Below, piece by piece: positions 19,862-58,322 of a DNA stretch of 64,000 nt. The notes beneath the pieces were generated by a model. It made no database searches. It was not told where the DNA came from and was given only the letters and a program-made list of their open reading frames with translations. Source of the DNA: Halobaculum litoreum (GTDB lineage: Archaea > Halobacteriota > Halobacteria > Halobacteriales > Haloferacaceae); the NCBI RefSeq assembly GCF_030127125.1, contig NZ_CP126156.1, positions 2,294,001 through 2,358,000 on the forward strand. The letters run 5' to 3'. The position numbers and the translations under genes were made by a program. Numbering within the stretch: the stretch's first letter is position 1; every line of letters begins with the position of its first letter.

Positions 19862-20541
19862 TCAGTCCCGCCGCGCGAGCACCGACTCGCCGGCGCGGAC
19901 CGCCTCGCCGCGGCGCACACGGACGTCGTCGACGGTGTAGCCAGCCGGCAACACCACGTCGGCCCGCGAGCCGAACGCGATGTATCCGATCCGGTCGCCC
20001 CGTGTGACCGTGTCTCCAGGCGAAACGTAGGGGGTGATCCGCCGGGCGAACCAGCCCGCGATGAGCGCGCCGTCGACGCGCTCGGCGCGGCCGTCGGCTC
20101 CCGCCGCGGCGCCGTCGCCCTCGCCCTCGGCGTCGCCGTCGCCGTCGCCAGCGTCGAGCGTGTACTCGAACCGCTCGTTGCGCTCGGACTCCTTCGCGAA
20201 CGCCGGCTTGTGGGCGGCGCCGCGGTGGTCGAGGCGCGTCACCGCGCCGTCGGCCGGCGCCCGGCAGACGTGCACGTCGAACGGGCTCATGAACACGCCG
20301 ACGCGGACGCGGTCGCCGTCCTCGCGGACCACCGAGACGTGGCCGTCCGCGGGCGACACCACCCCTCGCCCGCCGGCTCGCGCTCGGGGTCGCGGTAGAA
20401 GTACACCGAGAACGCCGCGACCGCCAGCAGCGCGAGCCCCAGCGGCGGGAACACGACGAACGCCGCGGCCGCGAGGACGAGCGGGACGGCGACGCGGCCT
20501 TCGCTCCCCGGCGCCAGATCCGGGATCGGGAGCGGGATCAC
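19862..20541 (-). CDS. Phosphatidylserine decarboxylase-like protein, split by a one-base frameshift
   Basis: Two frames join into one pyruvoyl-dependent decarboxylase of about 226 residues. The N-terminal part has a transmembrane pair and [10 protein letters not shown]; the C-terminal part has [20 protein letters not shown] and the self-cleavage region [13 protein letters not shown]. The frames meet at the C4 run 20362-20365; one more base would restore [10 protein letters not shown]. The enzyme would make (archaetidyl/phosphatidyl)ethanolamine lipid. GTG at 20541 overlaps the RFC stop by 4 bp. An acidic insertion ([12 protein letters not shown]) sits mid-protein. Confidence 0.85.
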
Positions 20542-27798: not shown

Positions 27799-28100
27799 CG
27801 AGCCGGGAGCGCGAACGGCGCTGCGCGAACGCGCCCGGCGGCGCGACCACCCCGACCCGAACCGAGGGGGTCGGACGGCCGGCGCCGCGAGCGTCGTGGT
27901 CGACCGCCGTCACGAGTCCGGCACGCGACCGCCGGACGCGTGCGCTCCGACGGCTGCGCGTCGGACAACTCGAAACGTTCGCAGCGTTGTGTCAGTTCCG
28001 GAAACCGCCGGACGACTCGGCGAGTACCCCTTCGTTTCGACTGGAGTGTGGAACGGTACCACGATCCGAGTGAACGGGGCGAGCGGGATCGCCGCGGGGG
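27799..28100. other. Convergent intergenic region with an ORB-like dyad
   Basis: No gene is seen in these 302 bp. At 28025-28044 lies ACCCCTTCGTTTCGACTGGA, the same 20 bases seen at 35289-35308 and nearly the same as the ORB before orc1 (50424-50446). A degenerate GTTCCGGAAAC sits at about 27995-28006. Confidence 0.55.
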
Positions 28101-34845: not shown

Positions 34846-35181
34846 TCAGTCCGACGCCGAGCGCGGCACGGTGAACGTCCCGTCCCACAGGTCACGGTTC
34901 GCGACCAGGAGCTCCAACAGCGGCTGGATGTCCCCGAACGAGGGGCCACGCCGGACGTGCTCGTCGGCGTCGACCGAGACGACCACGCCCATCTGTGCCA
35001 ACAGCGGGAGGTGGGTGTGGTACAACAGGAGCCGAGCCCGCTCGGTGTTCGGCTCCCCCGCGGCCAACGTCGACCCGATCGGAACGGTCGCGTCCGGTTC
35101 TCGCCCGAGTAGTTCGACCAGCACTCGTCGCCGCGCGGGGCTTCCGAGGGCGCGGAGTTGGTCGTCGAATGGTAGTGGCAC
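34846..35181 (-). CDS. Small winged-helix regulator (DUF7344-like)
   Basis: The 111-residue protein has an N-terminal helix-turn-helix pattern (LRALGSPARRRVLVELL, then LLLYHTHLPLLAQMGVVVSVDADEHVRRG), typical of short haloarchaeal DNA-binding proteins. It lies convergent to the TrmB gene with an 18-bp gap. ATG 35181 is the first start after a GATACGGGC box. Target genes are unknown. Confidence 0.7.
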   Translation of the reverse strand: MPLPFDDQLRALGSPARRRVLVELLGREPDATVPIGSTLAAGEPNTERARLLLYHTHLPLLAQMGVVVSVDADEHVRRGPSFGDIQPLLELLVANRDLWDGTFTVPRSASD

Positions 35182-35288
35182 GATGTTTCGTACACTGGAA
35201 TGGTCTCCAGCCCGTATCTACCCCGCCGTATTTCATCCGACCATCGTGTTGTGAGAAAACGGGTAACACCTGACGAACCGATGGCGGA

Positions 35289-35308
35289 ACCCCTTCGTTT
35301 CGACTGGA
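35289..35308 (-). other. ORB-like element upstream of tRNA-Gln region
   Basis: ACCCCTTCGTTTCGACTGGA is identical to 28025-28044 and differs by one base from the reverse complement of the orc1-proximal ORB at 50424-50446. It is 15 kb from the origin. Confidence 0.5.
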
Positions 35309-35361
35309 GAACACGAGACGTGGTCGGGGTGGACGTGCAACGGAAATCGACAGAACGGGAG

Positions 35362-35434
35362 TAGTCCCAGAAGGATTCGAACCTTCGTCGTTGCCCCCAG
35401 AAGGCAACAGGATTGGCCACTACCCCATGGGACT
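35362..35434 (-). tRNA. tRNA-Gln(CUG)
   Basis: It is 73 nt. Acceptor AGTCCCA pairs with TGGGACT, the anticodon stem TTGCC/GGCAA encloses TTCTGGG with anticodon CTG, and the T arm is AAGGTTCGAATCCTT. No intron and no encoded CCA. Confidence 0.94.
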
Positions 35435-35507
35435 GCTGCGTGTCTGCGCTTTCGGGTAGTCGATACGACGTTATGAGTGTTGCGAAGGCGACCGCGGTGC
35501 GGGGGCG

Positions 35508-36098
35508 CTACGAGGCCGGATCGGTCGCGTCCGCGCCGGCGTCGGGCGCCGCCCCCAGTCGTCCCTCGACGAACGCCGCCACGTCGTTCGCGAACGCCTC
35601 GACCTCGTCCCAGTCGGTGAACTCCGTGTCGCCGGCGGGGTCGGCCTCGGGGAAGCTGTCGCCGACCATCCGGCGCATCACCAGTCGCCGCAGGAAGCCG
35701 TACTTCGAGTAGCGCAACGCGCCGCCGAACTGGGCGACGCGGTCGGGGTGCCAGTCCACCGCCTCGAGGAACGCCTCGACGTAGCCCGCGGCCTCCGCGA
35801 CCGCGTCGTCGGAGCCCTCGGCCGACGCCAGCGAGAGCTGGAAGAACGCCGTCGGCCGCGCCGCCAGCGCCGCCCGGTTGTCGCGGACGAACCGGCGGAC
35901 CCGCTTCCCGTGGCGTCCGTAGTGGACCGACGAGCCGACGATCACCGCGTCGTACGAGACGACGCCGGGGGCGGCGTCCCCCCCGAGGTCGACCACGTCG
36001 ACGTCGTGGCCGCGCCCGCCGACGACCGTGCCGACCCGGTCGGCGACGGCCGCGGTCTGTCCCTCACCGGTCGCGTACGCGACGAGGATCGAACTCAT
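35508..36098 (-). CDS. Flavodoxin-domain protein (HemG-like)
   Basis: The 196-residue protein begins ILVAYATGEGQTAAVADRV, the FMN phosphate-binding loop of flavodoxins. It continues with YDAVIVGSSVHYGRHGKRVRRFVRDN and FFQLSLASAEGS, as in the menaquinone-dependent protoporphyrinogen dehydrogenase HemG family. In haloarchaea its substrate is unproved, so heme-pathway activity is only a possibility. The start follows from the flavodoxin loop position. Confidence 0.82.
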   Translation of the reverse strand: MSSILVAYATGEGQTAAVADRVGTVVGGRGHDVDVVDLGGDAAPGVVSYDAVIVGSSVHYGRHGKRVRRFVRDNRAALAARPTAFFQLSLASAEGSDDAVAEAAGYVEAFLEAVDWHPDRVAQFGGALRYSKYGFLRRLVMRRMVGDSFPEADPAGDTEFTDWDEVEAFANDVAAFVEGRLGAAPDAGADATDPAS

Positions 36099-47465: not shown

Positions 47466-47535
47466 TCGGGTCGGATCGGTGCCGGCGCCGGCAAGGCTCT
47501 ACCGGAACCGGACGACGGCTGGAGAGAAGGGACCC

Positions 47536-47764
47536 GTTTCGGGTGGAACGGCGATCGAGGTCGGGAGGAGAGGGGGCCGGTTCGCGTGGAACGACCACCG
47601 AGGTCGGGAGGAGAGGGGGCCGGTTCGCGTGGAACGACCACCGAGGTCGGGAGGAGAGGGGGCCGGTTCGCGTGGAACGACCACCGAGGTCGGGAGGAGA
47701 GGGGGCCGGTTCGCGTGGAACGGCGATCGGGGCCGGACGAGGAGGCCGTCGGTTCGGGTGGAAC
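47536..47764. repeat. 43-bp tandem array of six ORB-like dyads
   Basis: GTTTCGGGTGGAAC (47536), four copies of GGTTCGCGTGGAAC (47579, 47622, 47665, 47708) and GGTTCGGGTGGAAC (47751) are spaced exactly 43 bp, about four helical turns. Between them the unit CGAGGTCGGGAGGAGAGGGG repeats. The first and last dyads match the core of the origin ORB TTTCGGGTGGAAC. 43 is not divisible by three, and there is no gene. The array lies between MATE and oapC, about 2.2 kb from the origin. Confidence 0.85.
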
Positions 47765-47779
47765 GCCGGCCGCCGTCGC

Positions 47780-48438
47780 TCAGCGGTCGTCCCAGCTCTC
47801 GGGCATCTCGATGACGTAGCGGCCGTCCTCGCGCAGCGAGATGATGTACTCCTCGCGGTCGTACAGTTCCATGAGGTTCAGTTCGTACTGGCCCGGGCTG
47901 ACGATGCGGATCGACTCGAACTGGTCGTTGAGCTTCTGTCGCAGCGCGTCGAGGTTCGGGTCGACCGGCTCGGAGTCGCCGCCGTCGTCGGCGGCCTCCG
48001 CGGCACCCCGGCGTCGGCGGTCGCGGACGACTCGCCGGGCTCCGGCGCCGCGGCGGCGATCTCGTCCTCGGAGACGATCTCCGAGCGGGCGCTGGCCTGC
48101 GCGCCGTCCTCGCCGGCGTCGGTCGCGGCCGGCGGGGTCGTCGCGCTCGGGTCGCCGTCGGCCGGCGTCGACCGCGACCGCTCCGCGGGAGCCGCCCGGT
48201 CCGCGACCGGCTCGGTCGCTGCGTCGGACCGGGTCGGCTCCGTCCGCTCCGTCCGCGCGGCGTCGGCCGGGGACGGCGACGGGTCCGACTCCGTCGCCGC
48301 GTCGTCCGCCGTCGAGGGGTCGCCCGCGCCCGCGGGCCGGAACTGGAACTTGTTGCCCCCGCAGTCCGGACAGCCCGACAGCATCTCCTTGGAGCCGTCG
48401 GCGAACGTGCGGCCGCAGTTGGTGCACTGGTGGGGCAT
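47780..48438 (-). CDS. oapC: OapC/ArvC-family zinc-ribbon protein, split by a one-base frameshift
   Basis: An N-terminal zinc ribbon has CTNCGRTF and CPDCGGNKFQF (C5, C8, C23, C26). A long acidic, Ser/Thr/Pro-rich linker follows, then a C-terminal domain VDPNLDALRQKLNDQFESIRIVSPGQYELNLMELYDREE. The two frames meet at the C4 run 48006-48009; one more base gives about 219 residues. It is the third gene of the origin-associated operon with oapB and oapA, 3 bp from oapB. Confidence 0.82.
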
Positions 48439-48441
48439 CGA

Positions 48442-48843
48442 CTACCTCCGGGAGACGAGCGCGCTGATGAGGTCCTCGTCTTTGTGCAGCGTCTCGATCT
48501 GGTTGGCCGGCCCGATCACGGTGAGCTTCTTCGGCGCCTCCTCCTTGCCGAGGAGGCGTCCCATCAGCCCCTGGTTGGGCTGGTGGGTCGAGGGGTACGT
48601 CTCGATCTCGATGCCGGAGAAGTCGTCGGGGCTGATCTCGGTCATCGTGACCTCGATGAGCTTCGACTCCTCCTCGGGCGACAGTCCCGCCTCGAGCACG
48701 ACGATGTCGCCGTCGCGCACCGAATCGAGGATGAGGCGGATCTTCTCCATCGAGGTGAGCCCCTCCATGCGGGCGCCGCTGATGAGGTCGAGTCTGACCC
48801 CGTCGCCGGCGTCGCCGTCGTCGGGTGTGGTTGCCTCGGGCAT
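48442..48843 (-). CDS. oapB: OapB/ArvB-family protein (DUF2073)
   Basis: The 133-residue protein matches DUF2073 (LDLISGARMEGLTSMEKIRLILDSVRDGDIVVLEAGLSPEEESKLIEVTMTEI). It acts with the GTPase OapA; the exact role is unknown. ATG 48843 shares a base with the oapA stop (TAATG), so translation is coupled. Confidence 0.85.
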   Translation of the reverse strand: MPEATTPDDGDAGDGVRLDLISGARMEGLTSMEKIRLILDSVRDGDIVVLEAGLSPEEESKLIEVTMTEISPDDFSGIEIETYPSTHQPNQGLMGRLLGKEEAPKKLTVIGPANQIETLHKDEDLISALVSRR

Positions 48844-49484
48844 TATCCGAAGTACTCCGCGATCTTCTCGTACACTTCGTCCATGTTGTCCCCCTCCAGC
48901 GCCGACAGCGGCACCGTCTCGTGTTGCGGGAACGCGTCGGAGATGCGCTTCACGTCGGACTCGTCGAGGTCGACCTTGTTCGCGAAGATGAGGACCGGCA
49001 GGTCCTGACTCTCGATGATCCCGATGAGCATCGTGTTCACCTGCGTGAACGGGTCCGTCGTGGAGTCGAGCACGTAGATGACCCCGTCGACGTCCTCGCG
49101 GAGCCAGTGCATCGCCTCGGCGACGCCCTCGGTCGCCTCGCGCGACCGCTTGACGGCGTCGTCCTTCTCCATGTCGTGGTCGAGGAACTCCTTGTAGTCG
49201 ACCTTCGTCGTCACGCCGGGCGTGTCGACGATGTCGATGGTGACGGTCTTCCCGTTCCGCTCGATGGTGACGTTCTCCTTTCTGCGCGCGCGACGCGTCT
49301 CGTGCGGGATGTGACTCTCCGGCCCGACCGCGTCGCCGGTCCAGTCGCGGGCGATGCGGTTCGCCAGCGTCGTCTTCCCGGCGTTCGGCGGCCCGTAGAT
49401 CCCGATGCGTTTGGGTTCCTCGTCGGCGAAGAGCCGATCGGTGACCCGTGTGATGCTATCCCTGAGATTGGTGAGCAGACCCAT
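48843..49484 (-). CDS. oapA: OapA/ArvA Era-like small GTPase
   Basis: The 213-residue GTPase has G1 GPPNAGKTT (about 29-37), G3 DTPG (IVDTPGVTT) and G4 NKVD (FANKVDLDES), with a G5-like SALEG. In Haloferax volcanii this gene is next to the origin and the GTPase has been reported to drive extracellular vesicle formation (name ArvA). A GGAGG Shine-Dalgarno just upstream of ATG 49484 is clear; the transcript seems to begin near the TTAAG box at 49548-49553, giving a leader of about 40 nt. Confidence 0.9.
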   Translation of the reverse strand: MGLLTNLRDSITRVTDRLFADEEPKRIGIYGPPNAGKTTLANRIARDWTGDAVGPESHIPHETRRARRKENVTIERNGKTVTIDIVDTPGVTTKVDYKEFLDHDMEKDDAVKRSREATEGVAEAMHWLREDVDGVIYVLDSTTDPFTQVNTMLIGIIESQDLPVLIFANKVDLDESDVKRISDAFPQHETVPLSALEGDNMDEVYEKIAEYFG

Positions 49485-49905: not shown

Positions 49906-49935
49906 ACCCCCACCCCCTCGTTTCGGGTGGAACCC
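49906..49935 (-). other. ORB element 1 with G-string
   Basis: Minus strand: GGGTTCCACCCGAAACGAGG, then GGGTGGGGGT. The G-rich end points away from the AT-rich segment, as known for halophile ORBs. It pairs in opposite orientation with ORB 2. Confidence 0.82.
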
Positions 49936-49969
49936 GCCTGAGGAGGTGGGTCGGGTTCCGGCGCCGCGG

Positions 49970-50064
49970 TTCTCTAGTTCACCCCACCACACAAAATAAA
50001 ACCAATCTGCTAGTCGTGCGGATATTGTTGGCTGGCATTCGATATAAAGATGCCGGCATCTAGA
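49970..50064. other. AT-rich candidate DNA unwinding element
   Basis: A 95-bp segment, far AT-richer than the rest, includes CACACAAAATAAAACCAATC and GCATTCGATATAAAGATGCC, the second a small stem with AT loop. It lies between inverted ORBs 1 and 2. Confidence 0.8.
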
Positions 50065-50094
50065 CGGACCCACCCCCACCCCCGTCCCCGTGCC

Positions 50095-50124
50095 GTTCCA
50101 CCGGAAACGAAGGGGTGGGGGGGT
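50095..50124 (+). other. ORB element 2 with G-string
   Basis: GTTCCACCGGAAACGAAGGGG followed by TGGGGGGG. It is inverted relative to ORB 1, with the G-string pointing away from the AT-rich segment. Confidence 0.85.
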
Positions 50125-50423
50125 TCGGATCGGCCCCCGGCGACGCCCGCCGAGATGCCGACGGCGGTACGGCCCGCCCCCTCTTTCTAGTCGAATCCGG
50201 TTACGCCGGACGAACCGGCTCCCGGTCGGCTCGACTCCCTCGCGGGGGACGGCCGCCGGTGTCGGACCCCCCGTCGCGAGGATCCCGTCCGAATAGTAAC
50301 GCTTTTGAGGAGGCTGTCCGACCGTTTCGATTGCATCATCTGGACACCGGCCGTCCCCGAGGTGAGGACCAACTTCGACGGACACGGGGTCACGCGCCGT
50401 GATTCGGTGGGTGAGCGGTTCGG

Positions 50424-50446
50424 GTTCCAGTCGAAACAAAGGGGTA
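50424..50446 (+). other. ORB element 3, directly before orc1
   Basis: GTTCCAGTCGAAACAAAGGGGT lies 10 to 30 bp before the orc1 ATG and may also serve autoregulation of orc1. Confidence 0.78.
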
Positions 50447-50454
50447 TCCGATCG

Positions 50455-52080
50455 ATGACACGGGACGAGGGAACGACGGAGGGATCGGCGGACGGGGCGA
50501 GCGACGCCGACACGGACACCGACGCCGAAGACGACGAGACCGGATCGAGCGTACGAACGGACCCGGAGGCGACGCCGGGAGGCGACGGCGACGAGCCGGC
50601 GTCCGCCGGCGGGTCGTTCCAGTTCGGATCCGGGTCGCGCTCGCGCGCCGACGTGGACCTCGACGTCGACGAGGTGTTGAGCGACGACGACGAGGCCAGC
50701 ACGGGGCTGTTCGACGACCTGCTCTCGGGGGAACCGATCTTCGAGAACAAGGAGGTGCTCCGTCCCTCCTACACGCCCCACGAACTCCCTCACCGGACCG
50801 ACCAGATCAACAAGATGGCGACCATCCTCGTGTCCGCGCTGCGCGGGGAGACGCCGTCGAACATCCTCATCTACGGGAAGACGGGGACCGGGAAGACGGC
50901 GTCCGCGAAGTTCGTCTCCCAGGAGTTGGAGTCGACGAGCCAGAAGTACGACGTCCCCTGCGAGGTCGAGTACATCAACTGCGAGGTGACCGACACCCAG
51001 TACCGCGTGCTCGCACAGCTGGCCAACAAGTTCATCGAGAAGAACGAGGCCGTCATCGACGAACGCCTCGCGGAGCTCCGCGACCTCCGATCGGCCGCGA
51101 CGGACCACCCCGACGCGCTGACCGACACGGAGTTCGACGCCGTCGACGCCGTCGACGACCGGATCGCCGACCTCGAGGCCGACCGCGAGGAGATGGAGGA
51201 GGTGCCGATGACGGGGTGGCCCACCGACCGCGTCTACTCGACGTTCTTCGACGCCGTCGACTACCACGAGCGCGTCGTCGTCATCATGCTCGACGAGATC
51301 GACAAACTCGTCGAGAAGTCGGGCGACGACACGCTGTACAACCTCTCGCGGATGAACTCGGAGCTGAGCAACTCCCGGATCTCCATCATGGGGATCTCGA
51401 ACGACCTGAAGTTCACCGACTTCCTCGACCCGCGCGTCAAGTCGAGCCTCGGGGAGGAGGAGATCGTGTTCCCGCCGTACGACGCGAACCAGCTCCGGGA
51501 CATCCTCCAGCACCGCTCCGACATCGCGTTCAAGGGCGACGCGCTCACCGAGGACGTGATCCCGCTGTGTGCGGCGTTCGCCGCGCAGGAGCACGGGGAC
51601 GCGCGGCGGGCGCTCGACCTGCTCCGGACGGCGGGCGAACTCGCCGAGCGCTCGCAGGCGGACCTCGTCGAGGAGGCGCACGTCCGGCAGGCGCAGGACA
51701 AGATCGAGTTGGACCGCGTCGTCGAGGTCGTGCGCACGCTCCCGACCCAGTCGAAGATCGTCCTCTTCTCGATCATCCTGCTGGAGCAGAACGGCGTCCA
51801 CAACGTGAACACCGGCGAGGTGTTCAACATCTACAAGCGGCTCTGCGAGGAGATCGACGCCGACGTCCTCACGCAACGCCGCGTCACCGACCTCATCTCC
51901 GAGCTCGACATGCTCGGCATCGTCAACGCCGTCGTCGTCTCCAAGGGCCGGTACGGCCGGACGAAGGAGATCAGCCTCTCGGTCCCCGTCGAGGAGACCG
52001 AAGCCGTCCTCCTGTCGGACTCCCGTCTCGGCGACATCGAGGACGTCCAGCCGTTCGTCCAGGCGCGGTTCGACAACTGA
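50455..52080 (+). CDS. orc1: Orc1/Cdc6 origin-binding initiator
   Basis: The 541-residue AAA+ initiator binds ORBs and loads the replicative helicase. An acidic N-terminal extension of about 95 residues is followed by PHRTDQINKMA, Walker A YGKTGTGKTAS (140-150), an insertion with a helical acidic segment (about 200-255), Walker B VVIMLDEID (275-282), sensor 1 GISNDLKF, the arginine region LDPRVKSS and a C-terminal winged helix. ATG 50455 follows ORB 3. It is the origin-linked paralogue. Confidence 0.95.
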   Translation: MTRDEGTTEGSADGASDADTDTDAEDDETGSSVRTDPEATPGGDGDEPASAGGSFQFGSGSRSRADVDLDVDEVLSDDDEASTGLFDDLLSGEPIFENKEVLRPSYTPHELPHRTDQINKMATILVSALRGETPSNILIYGKTGTGKTASAKFVSQELESTSQKYDVPCEVEYINCEVTDTQYRVLAQLANKFIEKNEAVIDERLAELRDLRSAATDHPDALTDTEFDAVDAVDDRIADLEADREEMEEVPMTGWPTDRVYSTFFDAVDYHERVVVIMLDEIDKLVEKSGDDTLYNLSRMNSELSNSRISIMGISNDLKFTDFLDPRVKSSLGEEEIVFPPYDANQLRDILQHRSDIAFKGDALTEDVIPLCAAFAAQEHGDARRALDLLRTAGELAERSQADLVEEAHVRQAQDKIELDRVVEVVRTLPTQSKIVLFSIILLEQNGVHNVNTGEVFNIYKRLCEEIDADVLTQRRVTDLISELDMLGIVNAVVVSKGRYGRTKEISLSVPVEETEAVLLSDSRLGDIEDVQPFVQARFDN

Positions 52081-52109: not shown

Positions 52110-52188
52110 ACCCGATCGTTTCGACTCCACCGCCCCCGCGGAGCCCCCGGTTTCGGACGCGATATCGGTTCCAAACGAAACCGGGGGG
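52110..52188. other. Two ORB-like elements downstream of orc1
   Basis: ACCCGATCGTTTCGACTCCACC (52110-52131) and GGTTCCAAACGAAACCGGGG (52167-52186) lie in the 231-bp gap between orc1 and the convergent signal peptidase gene, in opposite orientation with C/G tracts outward. The second has a six-G tail. Confidence 0.6.
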
Positions 52189-52311
52189 CGCGCCCCCGAC
52201 GCGACCGGACGTGACCGGACGCGCCGTCCGTCGGCTGTCCTGTACGGGTGCATCGTCGACCGCGCCCTCGCGCTATCGGCCGACCGCTCGCGCTACCGGC
52301 GGTCAGTCGGG

Positions 52312-53251: not shown

Positions 53252-54917
53252 GTGCCGCTGGAGTCGTCCTCGCGTGTCGTGCAGGCGCTCACCAGCCGCG
53301 GCCTCAACGCCGAACGCGAGGCCGTGACCCTCATCGCGGAGTCGGCGGCGCCCGCGACGACGCTCGAGGCGGCCGTCGAGGCCGCCCCCGACGACGCGCT
53401 CGTGCTCACCGTCGCGCACGTCCGCGCGGCGCTCGAGGCCGACCCCGCGCCGGACCCGCCACAGGTCGACGGCGACTCGCGCCGGGACGGACCGACCGGG
53501 GGTCGCCCGCCGACCGACCCGCCGACCGGCCCGCCGACGCCACACCCGAGGCGTCCGCCGACCCCGAAGCGGGGGCCGGACCGTCCCCGTCCGCCGCGGC
53601 CGACGACCCCTCCGTTTCGACTGGAACCGACCCGACCGGATCGACACACGCGACCGGCGACGCTCCACGCGAAACAGGGGGGTCGGGATCGGCCGTCGGG
53701 AGCCGCTCCCCGACGAAGCCGGTCGTCGCCAACGACATGACCGGCGAGTCGACCGGGACGGGCGCGTACGACGAGTTCGTCGGCGTGTTCCGCGACCGCT
53801 ACGAACGGCTGTCGGGGCAACTGCGCGGTCGGGTGAACCACCGGCCGGCCGACTCCGTCGAGGCGATGGGCGGCGGCGCCGACGTGGAGATCATCGGGCT
53901 CGTCAACGACATCCGGTCGACCGCCTCGGGCCACTGGCTGATCGAGTTGGAGGACACCACCGGGACGTTCCCGTGTCTCGTGATGAAGGACCGCGACATC
54001 GCGGACCTTGTGAACGAACTCCTCATGGACGAGTGCATCGCGGTGTCGGGGACGCTCGCCGACGACGCCGGCATCGTGTTCGTCGACGCGATCCACTTCC
54101 CGGACGTCCCCCGCACCCACCGCCCGAGCACCGCCGACCGCCACGTCCAGGCGGCGCTCATCTCCGACGTGCACGTCGGCTCCCAGGAGTTCCTCGCGGA
54201 CGCGTGGTCCCGCTTCGCCGACTGGCTCCACACCGAGGCGGCCGAACACGTCGAGTACCTCCTCGTCGCCGGCGACATGGTCGAGGGGGTGGGCGTCTAC
54301 CCCGACCAGGACGAGGAGCTGACGATCGTCGACATCTACGAGCAGTACGAGGCGTTCGCGGAGCACCTCAAGGAGGTCCCCGGCGACATGGAGATCGTCA
54401 TGATCCCCGGCAACCACGACGCCGTCCGCCTCGCCGAACCCCAACCCGGCTTCGACGAGGAACTCCGCGAGATCATGAGCGCGCACGACCCCCAGATCGT
54501 CAGCAACCCCGCGATGGTCGACGTCGAGGGCGTGAACGTCCTCATGTACCACGGCGTCTCCCTCGACGAGGTGATCGCCGAGTTGCCCGCCGAGAAGGCC
54601 AGCTACGACGAGCCGCACAAGGCGATGTACCACCTGCTGAAGAAGCGCCACGTCGCCCCCCAGTTCGGGGGGTCGCACCCGCGTCGCGCCCGAGGAGCGC
54701 GACTACCTCGTCATCGACGAGGTGCCCGACGTGTTCCACACCGGCCACGTCCACAAACTGGGCTGGGGGGAAGTACCACAACGTCCTCGCGGTCAACTCC
54801 GGCTGCTGGCAGGCGCAGACCGACTTCCAGAAGTCCGTCAACATCGACCCCGACGCCGGCTACGCCCCGATCCTCGATCTCGACACGCTGGAGATGACCG
54901 TCCGCAAGTTCGTCTGA
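53252..54917 (+). CDS. polD1: DNA polymerase D small subunit DP1, with three one-base frameshifts
   Basis: Three frames combine into about 554 residues. The N-terminal domain starts GTG 53252 (PLESSSRVVQALTSRGLNAEREAVTLI), then a Pro/Asp-rich linker, an OB fold (LVNDIRSTASGHWLIELEDTTG) and the calcineurin-like exonuclease domain with SDVHVGSQEF, AGDMVEG, PGNHDAV, YHGVSL and HTGHVHKLGWG. DP1 pairs with DP2 in PolD. Breaks are at G5 53498-53502 (one base missing), G6 54667-54672 and G6 54765-54770 (one extra each); removing them restores one frame with no stop. An ORB-like dyad lies in the linker. Confidence 0.92.
53606..53628. other. ORB-like dyad inside the polD1 linker
   Basis: ACCCCTCCGTTTCGACTGGA, followed by ACC, is read in frame as DPSVSTGT with the codons GTT TCG ACT GGA. 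GTT and ACT are rare among neighbouring genes. Confidence 0.55.
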
Positions 54918-57125: not shown

Positions 57126-58322
57126 TCACTCCTGCTCGACCACCCGCACGTCGTCCGGGTCGACGCCCAGGGTCACGCCCTCGCCGACGGCGAACGACCG
57201 CTCGCCGCCGGTGCGCGCGGTGACGGCCACGCCGTTCCAGTCGCAGCGGAGGCGTGTCGAGTCGCCGAGGAACTCGGTGTGCTCGACCGTCGCGGGCAAC
57301 GCCGCGCGCCCCTCGCCGACGCCGCGATCCCCCCGACGTACCCGGATCCGCTCCGGCCGGACGCAGACGGTCAGGGTGGCACCCGGTCGCACCGACCCCC
57401 CGGCTTCCACTGGAACCGGGAGCACGTGCGCGTCGGTGTCGCCCACGCGGACTCCGGGGACGTCGAGGTCCGCGAGCGTCGCGCCGGCGGCGGCGGACCC
57501 GCCCCCGGCGGCGCCGTGTCCCGTGACCGTCCCGTCGAGGACGTTGTTGTCGCCGAGGAACCCGGCGACGAACCGCGTCGCCGGCGCGTCGTACAGCTCC
57601 CGGGGCGCGCCGACCTGCTCGATCCGGCCGTCGTTGACGACGGCGACGCGGTCGGACACCGACAGCGCCTCCTCCTGGTCGTGGGTGACGTACACCGTCG
57701 TCAGCCCGACCTCGCGTTGGATCTCGCGCACCTGCACCCGGAGCCGCTCGCGGAGGCGGGCGTCCAGCGCCGACATCGGCTCGTCGAGCAGGAGCAGGCG
57801 GGGCGCGGGCGCCAGCGCCCGCGCCAGCGCCACGCGCTGCTGTTGCCCCCCGGAGAGGGTGTCGGGGTCGCGGTCGGCGAAGCCGGGGAGGTCGACCAAC
57901 GCCAACAACTCGGCGACGCGTTCGTCCCGCGTCGTGCCCCCCGGCGGGTCGGCGAACCGGAGGCCGTAGGCGACGTTCTCGCCGACGGTCATGTGGGGGA
58001 ACAGCGCGTAGCTCTGGAACACGACGCCGACCCCCCTCGCTTCGGGTGGAACCCCCGCCATCGACTCGCCGCCGATCTCCACCGTGCCGCCGGTCGGCTG
58101 CTCGAACCCGGCGAGACAGCGCAGGGTGGTGGTCTTGCCGCAGCCGGAGGGGCCGACGAGCGTGAAGAACTCGCCCGGCTCGACCCGGAAGTCGACGCCG
58201 TCCAGCGCGGTCGTGGCGCCGTACTCGACGCGGAGGTCCTCGACGCGGACGCCCGCCGGCTCGGCGCCCGCGTCGCCGCCGCGGGCGTCGTCGGCGCCGG
58301 GGTCGCTACCCACGGAACTCAC
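57126..58322 (-). CDS. ABC transporter ATP-binding protein (thiamine/iron/polyamine type)
   Basis: The 398-residue protein has Walker A GPSGCGKTT, Q-loop VVFQSYALFPHMTV, signature LSGGQQQRVAL, Walker B LLLLDEPMSALD and H-loop YVTHDQEEALSVSD, then a C-terminal TOBE domain. It completes a three-gene importer with the downstream-oriented permease and binding protein. The start is probably GTG at 58322 or 58313, overlapping the permease end. Two ORB-like dyads lie within the coding sequence. Confidence 0.9.
   Translation of the reverse strand: MSSVGSDPGADDARGGDAGAEPAGVRVEDLRVEYGATTALDGVDFRVEPGEFFTLVGPSGCGKTTTLRCLAGFEQPTGGTVEIGGESMAGVPPEARGVGVVFQSYALFPHMTVGENVAYGLRFADPPGGTTRDERVAELLALVDLPGFADRDPDTLSGGQQQRVALARALAPAPRLLLLDEPMSALDARLRERLRVQVREIQREVGLTTVYVTHDQEEALSVSDRVAVVNDGRIEQVGAPRELYDAPATRFVAGFLGDNNVLDGTVTGHGAAGGGSAAAGATLADLDVPGVRVGDTDAHVLPVPVEAGGSVRPGATLTVCVRPERIRVRRGDRGVGEGRAALPATVEHTEFLGDSTRLRCDWNGVAVTARTGGERSFAVGEGVTLGVDPDDVRVVEQE
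57394..57420. other. ORB-like dyad inside the ABC ATPase gene (TOBE part)
   Basis: GACCCCCCGGCTTCCACTGG is followed by AACCGGG. In frame (minus) it is CCG GTT CCA GTG GAA GCC GGG GGG. GTT and CCA are rare here. Confidence 0.45.
58029..58054. other. ORB-like dyad inside the ABC ATPase gene
   Basis: GACCCCCCTCGCTTCGGGTG, then GAACCC, is nearly identical to ORB 1 (CCCCCTCGTTTCGGGTGGAACCC; one base differs over that span). In frame it encodes GVPPEARGVGV using GTT CCA. Confidence 0.55.

Follow-up and report, generated by a model that had tools for sequence, protein, structure and literature searches.

Which of the ORBs around the replication origin of Halobaculum litoreum make up the origin itself, and what could be the role of those lying outside it? 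The question arises from a window of 64,000 nucleotides (NZ_CP126156.1, positions 2,294,001 to 2,358,000; the whole stretch of DNA analyzed, to whose first letter the coordinates below refer). A sequence-only reading of this window had described an AT-rich segment enclosed by two inverted ORBs with outward-pointing G-strings, with a third ORB immediately upstream of orc1 and with oapABC and polD1 on the flanks, and had named the locus oriC1. All features of this description stand, while an ORB pair within polD1 and other outlying ORBs, here called satellites, are missing from it.

The inverted arrangement is confirmed by exact pattern matches. ORB1 (49906-49935, minus strand, 40.1 bits in the PWM) has its core at 49913-49933 and a G-string that extends to 49907, and ORB2 (50095-50124, plus strand, 39.3 bits) has its core at 50095-50115 and a G-string that extends to 50123. 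Both match GTTCCANNNGAAACNNNGGGG exactly and carry the dyad with the extended G-string directed outward, to the left in ORB1 and to the right in ORB2. The two boxes also form the arms of a 39-nt inverted repeat, 82% complementary, with the G-strings outward. Their spacing is 180 to 183 bp in 11/11 compared loci of the genus. The presumed unwinding element between them (49970-50064, 56% AT) has the highest AT content of any 95-bp stretch in the 64 kb and lies between the 19-nt arms of an imperfect G-rich inverted repeat (repeat I2; 49942-49960, plus strand, and 50065-50083, minus strand; 74% complementary). ORB3 (50424-50449, plus strand, 35.9 bits) is likewise an exact GTTCCANNNGAAACNNNGGGG match in its core (50424-50444), lacks the extended G-string, and is followed ten bases further on by the ATG of orc1 at 50455, a position that makes it a possible autoregulatory site. 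With up to 2 mismatches allowed, the 21-base ORB pattern matches 11 times in the window, compared with 0.04 times on average and at most twice in 100 dinucleotide shuffles.

The neighboring genes were assigned by protein-family matches. The gene orc1 (50455-52080, plus strand; NF001625, 653 bits, cut-off of 501) encodes an Orc1/Cdc6 initiator of the oriC1 type. Eight Cdc6-lid matches are found in this genome, six of them above the family cut-off, and point to other Orc paralogues. On the minus strand lie oapC (47780-48442; PF09845), oapB (48442-48843; PF09846), and, in the place of oapA and identified by protein family and position, a gene for a small Era-like GTPase (48843-49484). According to the available part of PMC10927574, oapA is now called arvA and encodes a GTPase driving vesicle formation, so the name "oap" need not imply a role in replication. 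By family and place, 48843-49484 is predicted to be this arvA vesiculation GTPase, and the label "origin-associated" may mislead. The conserved part of polD1, encoding the DNA polymerase D (polymerase II) small subunit, occupies one frame at 53737-54675 (plus strand; NF003116, 674 bits, cut-off of 425). Between oapC and a MATE-type transporter gene, a 43-bp unit is repeated 5.4 times (47534-47765); each unit contains an ORB-like dyad without a G-string, and the array was not counted among the ORBs. A weak match 3' of orc1 (52168-52188, plus strand, 14.9 bits) was set aside as well, as it forms the right arm of a G/C-rich hairpin (52140-52200) that is probably a terminator.

The features of oriC1 used for comparison come from PMC3936714, PMC3528665, and PMC4010727, which, like the other PMC articles cited here, are represented by parts of their texts. 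The minimal oriC1 of Haloarcula hispanica is the AT-rich region between two inverted ORBs, neither of which can lose its extended G-string without abolishing the origin; a G-rich inverted repeat within this region acts as an enhancer, and some haloarchaea possess just one half of it (PMC3936714). The window contains an oriC1-type orc1/cdc6 gene with oapABC and polD1 as neighbors, as well as an AT-rich segment enclosed by two inverted ORBs that both carry the extended G-string. The outward inverted pair with the extended G-string recurs in 63 of the 71 named haloarchaeal loci with orc1 in reach. Layout, initiator family, and neighboring genes thus support the name oriC1: the locus is almost certainly the conserved haloarchaeal oriC1 in Halobaculum, of the ordinary known kind, with predicted origin activity.

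The most constant of the outlying boxes lie in polD1. Site A (53607-53627, minus strand, 36.8 bits), which reads DPSVSTGT in the polD1 frame, and site B (53662-53682, plus strand, 28.0 bits), which reads APRETGGS, form an inverted pair within the coding sequence (53607-53682), 56 bp from start to start. As in the other satellites, the dyad TTCCA-N3-GAAAC is followed by GGGG(T) at the fixed distance. The polD1 frame is broken in this genome (53341-54900), with the N-terminal part in another frame and a second break near residue 313. Since the assembly is 85.9% complete, sequence errors are the likely cause. In 9 loci of the same genus, the N-terminal linker reads through without interruption, and the nearest named PolD1 sequences are those of Halobaculum saliterrae (94%), the metagenome-assembled QS_6_71_20 (93%), and Halobaculum gomorrense (92%).

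At a threshold of at least 13 bits, at least one ORB is found in the polD1 linker in 80/80 named haloarchaeal loci. Both sites occur in 58 of them, with a spacing of exactly 56 bp in 54 and of 53, 68, 68, and 71 bp in the remaining 4. In Haloarcula, 10/10 named loci have both sites at this 56-bp spacing. A scan of the class with a fixed-spacing pattern (at most 3 mismatches) found the 56-bp pair in 176 of 292 genomes and in 54 of 77 genera, with no match of the reversed-pattern control in any row; several genomes belong to both this set and that of the named loci (e.g., L132 = G002). Four class genomes (G132, G176, G194, and G272) carry two 56-bp ORB pairs instead of one. In a sample of the phylum, the same kind of scan detected the pair in 13/33 genomes of the class and in 0/163 genomes from the rest of the phylum. 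Among the matches listed for the 176 genomes with a pair, 69/69 of those checked outside the genus lie inside polD1, 203 to 380 bp into the polD1 match.

The exact spacing is not universal. A sample of 30 was taken from the 116 genomes that do not show the 56-bp pair, with linker sites assigned by their position in the locus: 13 contain both sites (at spacings of 53, 56, 68, or 74 bp), another 13 a single one, and the remaining 4 no site in the linker. This indicates that the 56-bp pair is not indispensable. It is absent from 34/34 genomes of the large genus g21, two of which were examined and retain one strong site. Nor is a fixed distance to oriC1 needed. In 9 of the 80 named loci, polD1 lies more than 10 kb from orc1, and each retains at least one linker ORB. 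When the inverted exact ORB pair is taken to mark oriC1, the polD1 pair is separated from it by roughly 130 kb in Halorarius litoreus and by 85 kb in its congener Halorarius halobius, and the distance is 37 kb in Natrarchaeobius and 12 kb in Haladaptatus; in a further genome (G024), polD1 lies 10.4 kb from orc1 and contains a strong pair. Because it stays in polD1 when the gene is distant, the pair belongs to polD1.

The linker that holds the pair is a variable stretch of the protein, and the codons within the boxes show what is being kept. The first codon of site B (codon 0) is TCT, ACT, GTT, GCT, GAT, or AGT, encoding S, T, V, A, or D, and its third base is T in 72/72 sites, where about 6 would be expected from the codon use of the same genes. 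To avoid the bias that comes from picking sites by the motif, one site was used to predict the other. Sites counted for this purpose had to be in the expected codon phase and no more than 400 bp from the polD1 match, which left 72 and 66 of them in the 80 loci. Starting from site B, a site A (3 mismatches or fewer) turns up at 56 bp in 59/72 cases, compared with 5/864 at other in-frame spacings; from site A, site B is found in 60/66 cases, compared with 5/792. At the predicted sites, third bases are A or T in codons 3, 5, and 6 of site A in 69/71, 67/72, and 69/72 cases and in codons 0, 1, and 3 of site B in 64/66, 64/66, and 63/66 cases, with 5 to 17 expected. A/T-ending codons keep the bases of the motif even as the amino acid changes, and selection therefore acts on the DNA. 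The training set of the PWM, 104 exact core matches from the 28 loci scanned, includes polD1 and other satellite sites; in view of this circularity, the fixed pattern, the spacing prediction, and a core-only score were used as well.

Core-only scoring of the 80 named loci yields 497 ORB matches, compared with 0 in the reversed control, and divides them by the extended G-string, defined as at least 5 G among the 6 nt that follow the core. Of the sites upstream of orc1, 127/227 possess it, compared with 2/132 in polD1, 2/122 elsewhere, and 0/16 just downstream of orc1. The polD1 pair and the other satellites of the window are devoid of this halophile-specific extension. A second class of box thus surrounds oriC1, consisting of the dyad and GGGGT without the extended G-string, with the polD1 pair as its most constant member. 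The conservation of the pair suggests an element of replication control.

A genome-wide search with YTCCANNNGAAACNNNGGGG, allowing at most 1 mismatch, found 14 sites in 3.04 Mb (control, 1), 11 of which fall in a 38-kb part of the window. In addition to ORB1 to ORB3, the sites found comprise the polD1 pair, two intergenic boxes (28027 and 35290), and boxes within two other genes. Of these satellites, one lies in the convergent gap beside a threonine ammonia-lyase gene (28027-28047, minus strand) and is found in the same place in 10/10 congeners; another, in the intergenic gap 35181-35508 (35290-35310, minus strand), has the same neighbors in G004 only. Two lie inside coding sequences and recur in 9/10 congeners each: one in a phosphatidylserine decarboxylase-like gene (20013-20033, plus strand, 18.7 bits), written in A/T-ending codons, and one with a single core mismatch in an ABC-transporter ATPase gene (58032-58052, minus strand, 22.4 bits), written in A/T-ending codons and AGG. 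The view of these two as chance matches in conserved coding DNA is overturned by the codon choice, and the case made from their codons is weaker than that for polD1 because it covers one genus only and the motif itself served to find the sites. A weak match in the same ATPase gene (57396-57416, minus strand, 17.9 bits) occurs in this genome only and is doubtful.

Beyond the window, an ORB adjacent to serA is present in 8/8 loci obtained from Halobaculum, in 5 of which serB was detected on its far side; loci were obtained only where a pattern match was listed, and three other genomes of the genus fall outside this count. Where contigs permit measuring, the box lies about 185 to 217 kb from oriC1. 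In locus L020 (1501-1520), at a distance of 184 kb, it is situated between serA and serB, which are divergent, and it stands beside serA in 7 congeners. An exact core match (L019; G000:C1:2083791-2083810) occupies the gap between genes for an Lrp-type regulator and an aminopeptidase, 260 kb from oriC1, and in G004 the corresponding gap holds a core match that scores below 14 bits in the PWM. The boxes cluster around the origin. In 8 Halobaculum chromosomes (3 of the 11 genus genomes, G002, G005, and G010, were left out for their short contigs), half of the 68 exact boxes (34) are no more than 5 kb from oriC1, and a further 24 are no more than 60 kb from it; each genome has 3 to 5 exact satellites outside the core. 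The sites are inherited and not independent, and no probability is therefore claimed for this clustering.

What these boxes would do is suggested by what they lack. Since they do not have the G-string that is essential to oriC1 in H. hispanica (PMC3936714), the satellites would bind Orc1 without firing; the binding itself is likely. At the origin, Orc1 would bind ORB1 and ORB2, and the AT-rich segment between them would open. At the satellites, Orc1 would bind and replication would not start. Lying mostly near the origin, the satellites would be duplicated soon after oriC1 fires, and the new copies would absorb free Orc1 and hold back a second firing; by analogy, they would act like oriC2D of Haloarcula hispanica and datA of Escherichia coli. 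The account as a whole, in which the satellites bind Orc1 without initiating and most likely titrate it after initiation, has about as much for it as against it, and titration as their main role is somewhat doubtful. A plasmid with the H. hispanica oriC1 is compatible with the wild type, unlike one with oriC2 (PMC3936714), so extra boxes of the oriC1 type do no obvious harm, which counts against titration. So do the small number of satellites, 3 to 5 per genome against 11 ORBs in oriC2D, the dispensability of the 56-bp pair, and its absence from all 34 genomes of g21.

A broader proposal places Orc1 docking sites around oriC1 throughout the class, partly written into genes by codon choice and with the polD1 pair as the most constant, which would restrain or time replication. 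In H. hispanica, cdc6A is far harder to delete than oriC1, and those authors infer a vital function outside oriC1 (PMC3936714). The satellites are candidate places where this function might act, and Orc1 bound there could explain it. The broader proposal is put forward tentatively.

DnaA acts as a transcription regulator, and in the main rival explanation Orc1 would do the same, with the satellites as regulatory sites for polD1, for its own gene through ORB3, and for a few metabolic genes. The position of ORB3 directly upstream of orc1 fits this explanation, as do the satellite beside serA in the Halobaculum loci fetched, the vital function proposed for Cdc6A outside oriC1 (PMC3936714), and the persistence of the pair in polD1 at 12 to 130 kb from oriC1. 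However, the polD1 pair lies 203 to 380 bp inside the polD1 match and thus away from the promoter, other satellites are situated in coding sequences or between convergent genes, and clustering near the origin would be unexpected for a general regulon. Regulation of this kind is unlikely to be the role of the satellites.

In bacteria, parS sites organize the origin region, and satellites bound by Orc1 could similarly serve its folding, anchoring, or segregation. The scatter of boxes around a single origin, across tens to hundreds of kilobases and in part within genes, and the retention of the polD1 pair at 85 to 130 kb from oriC1 would suit such a role, but a spread array would not need a pair at fixed spacing. 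We know of no partner for it, and this explanation is improbable. Less probable still is a second or dormant origin at the polD1 pair, whose sites share with ORB1 and ORB2 the inverted, outward-facing arrangement; the 36 bp between its sites are GC-rich here and contain no unwinding element, and the sites are without the extended G-string needed by the H. hispanica oriC1, the minimal form of which is ORB1, the AT-rich region, and ORB2 (PMC3936714). That the motif is a conserved peptide (DPSVSTGT ... PxETKG) with a coincidental likeness to ORBs is hardly credible: the peptide does recur in an otherwise variable linker, but the amino acid of codon 0 in site B varies under a constant third base T, and the match to PWM and core is that of noncoding ORBs, 497 in the 80 loci compared with 0 reversed.

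Provided that Orc1 does bind them, the satellites would be an archaeal candidate for what prevents a second firing of oriC1. They would also be a physical candidate for the vital role of Cdc6A away from the origin and an instance of initiator sites sharing DNA with coding sequence across a whole archaeal class. The origin itself is known; the satellites and the polD1 pair appear to be new, with no earlier report found. A search of titles and the starts of abstracts in the open full-text literature, a scope that excludes Norais et al. (2007) and Coker et al. (2009), gave no report of an ORB pair in polD1, and there is no mention of it in the available parts of PMC3936714, PMC3528665, PMC10927574, PMC4595724, PMC2841640, PMC4010727, PMC7776575, PMC4441112, and PMC3119063. 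ORBs downstream of other orc/cdc6 genes are already known (PMC3936714). A survey of haloarchaeal origins from 2012 counted, according to its available text, only the gaps directly beside orc/cdc6 genes (PMC3528665), which would be why boxes embedded in coding sequence are unlisted there.

Compared with known systems, the core of the locus has the same inverted G-string ORBs, AT-rich segment, orc1, oapABC, and polD1 as the haloarchaeal oriC1-orc1/cdc6A origins of Haloarcula hispanica, Haloferax, and Halobacterium, as far as the available texts describe them (PMC3936714 and PMC4010727). No feature distinguishes the core from the known oriC1; the inner G-rich inverted repeat, described as perfect in H. 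hispanica, is imperfect here (74%).

The satellites have looser counterparts. In Sulfolobus, a protein that binds an origin element, UBP, likewise has many other genomic sites; contrary to Orc1, it is described in the available text as a nucleoid-associated protein and not an initiator, with sites in the hundreds (PMC12141716). The datA locus of E. coli, named as a bacterial parallel (PMC4010727), consists of initiator sites outside the origin that restrain reinitiation, a role that the satellites would share. Initiator, sequence, and domain of life differ from those considered here, where a 56-bp pair is embedded in coding sequence. The ORB-rich oriC2D of H. hispanica, downstream of cdc6E, lacks origin activity and holds oriC2 in check, probably by titrating Cdc6E (PMC3936714). 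It likewise represents ORBs near an origin that are not the origin and for which uptake of the initiator is proposed. Directly downstream of orc1 in the window, where a dense cluster of this kind was looked for, one weak hairpin-like match only was found. While oriC2D is a dense intergenic cluster of 11 ORBs in 722 bp for Cdc6E, the satellites comprise an inverted pair within a coding sequence and scattered single boxes, all of the oriC1 type of ORB.
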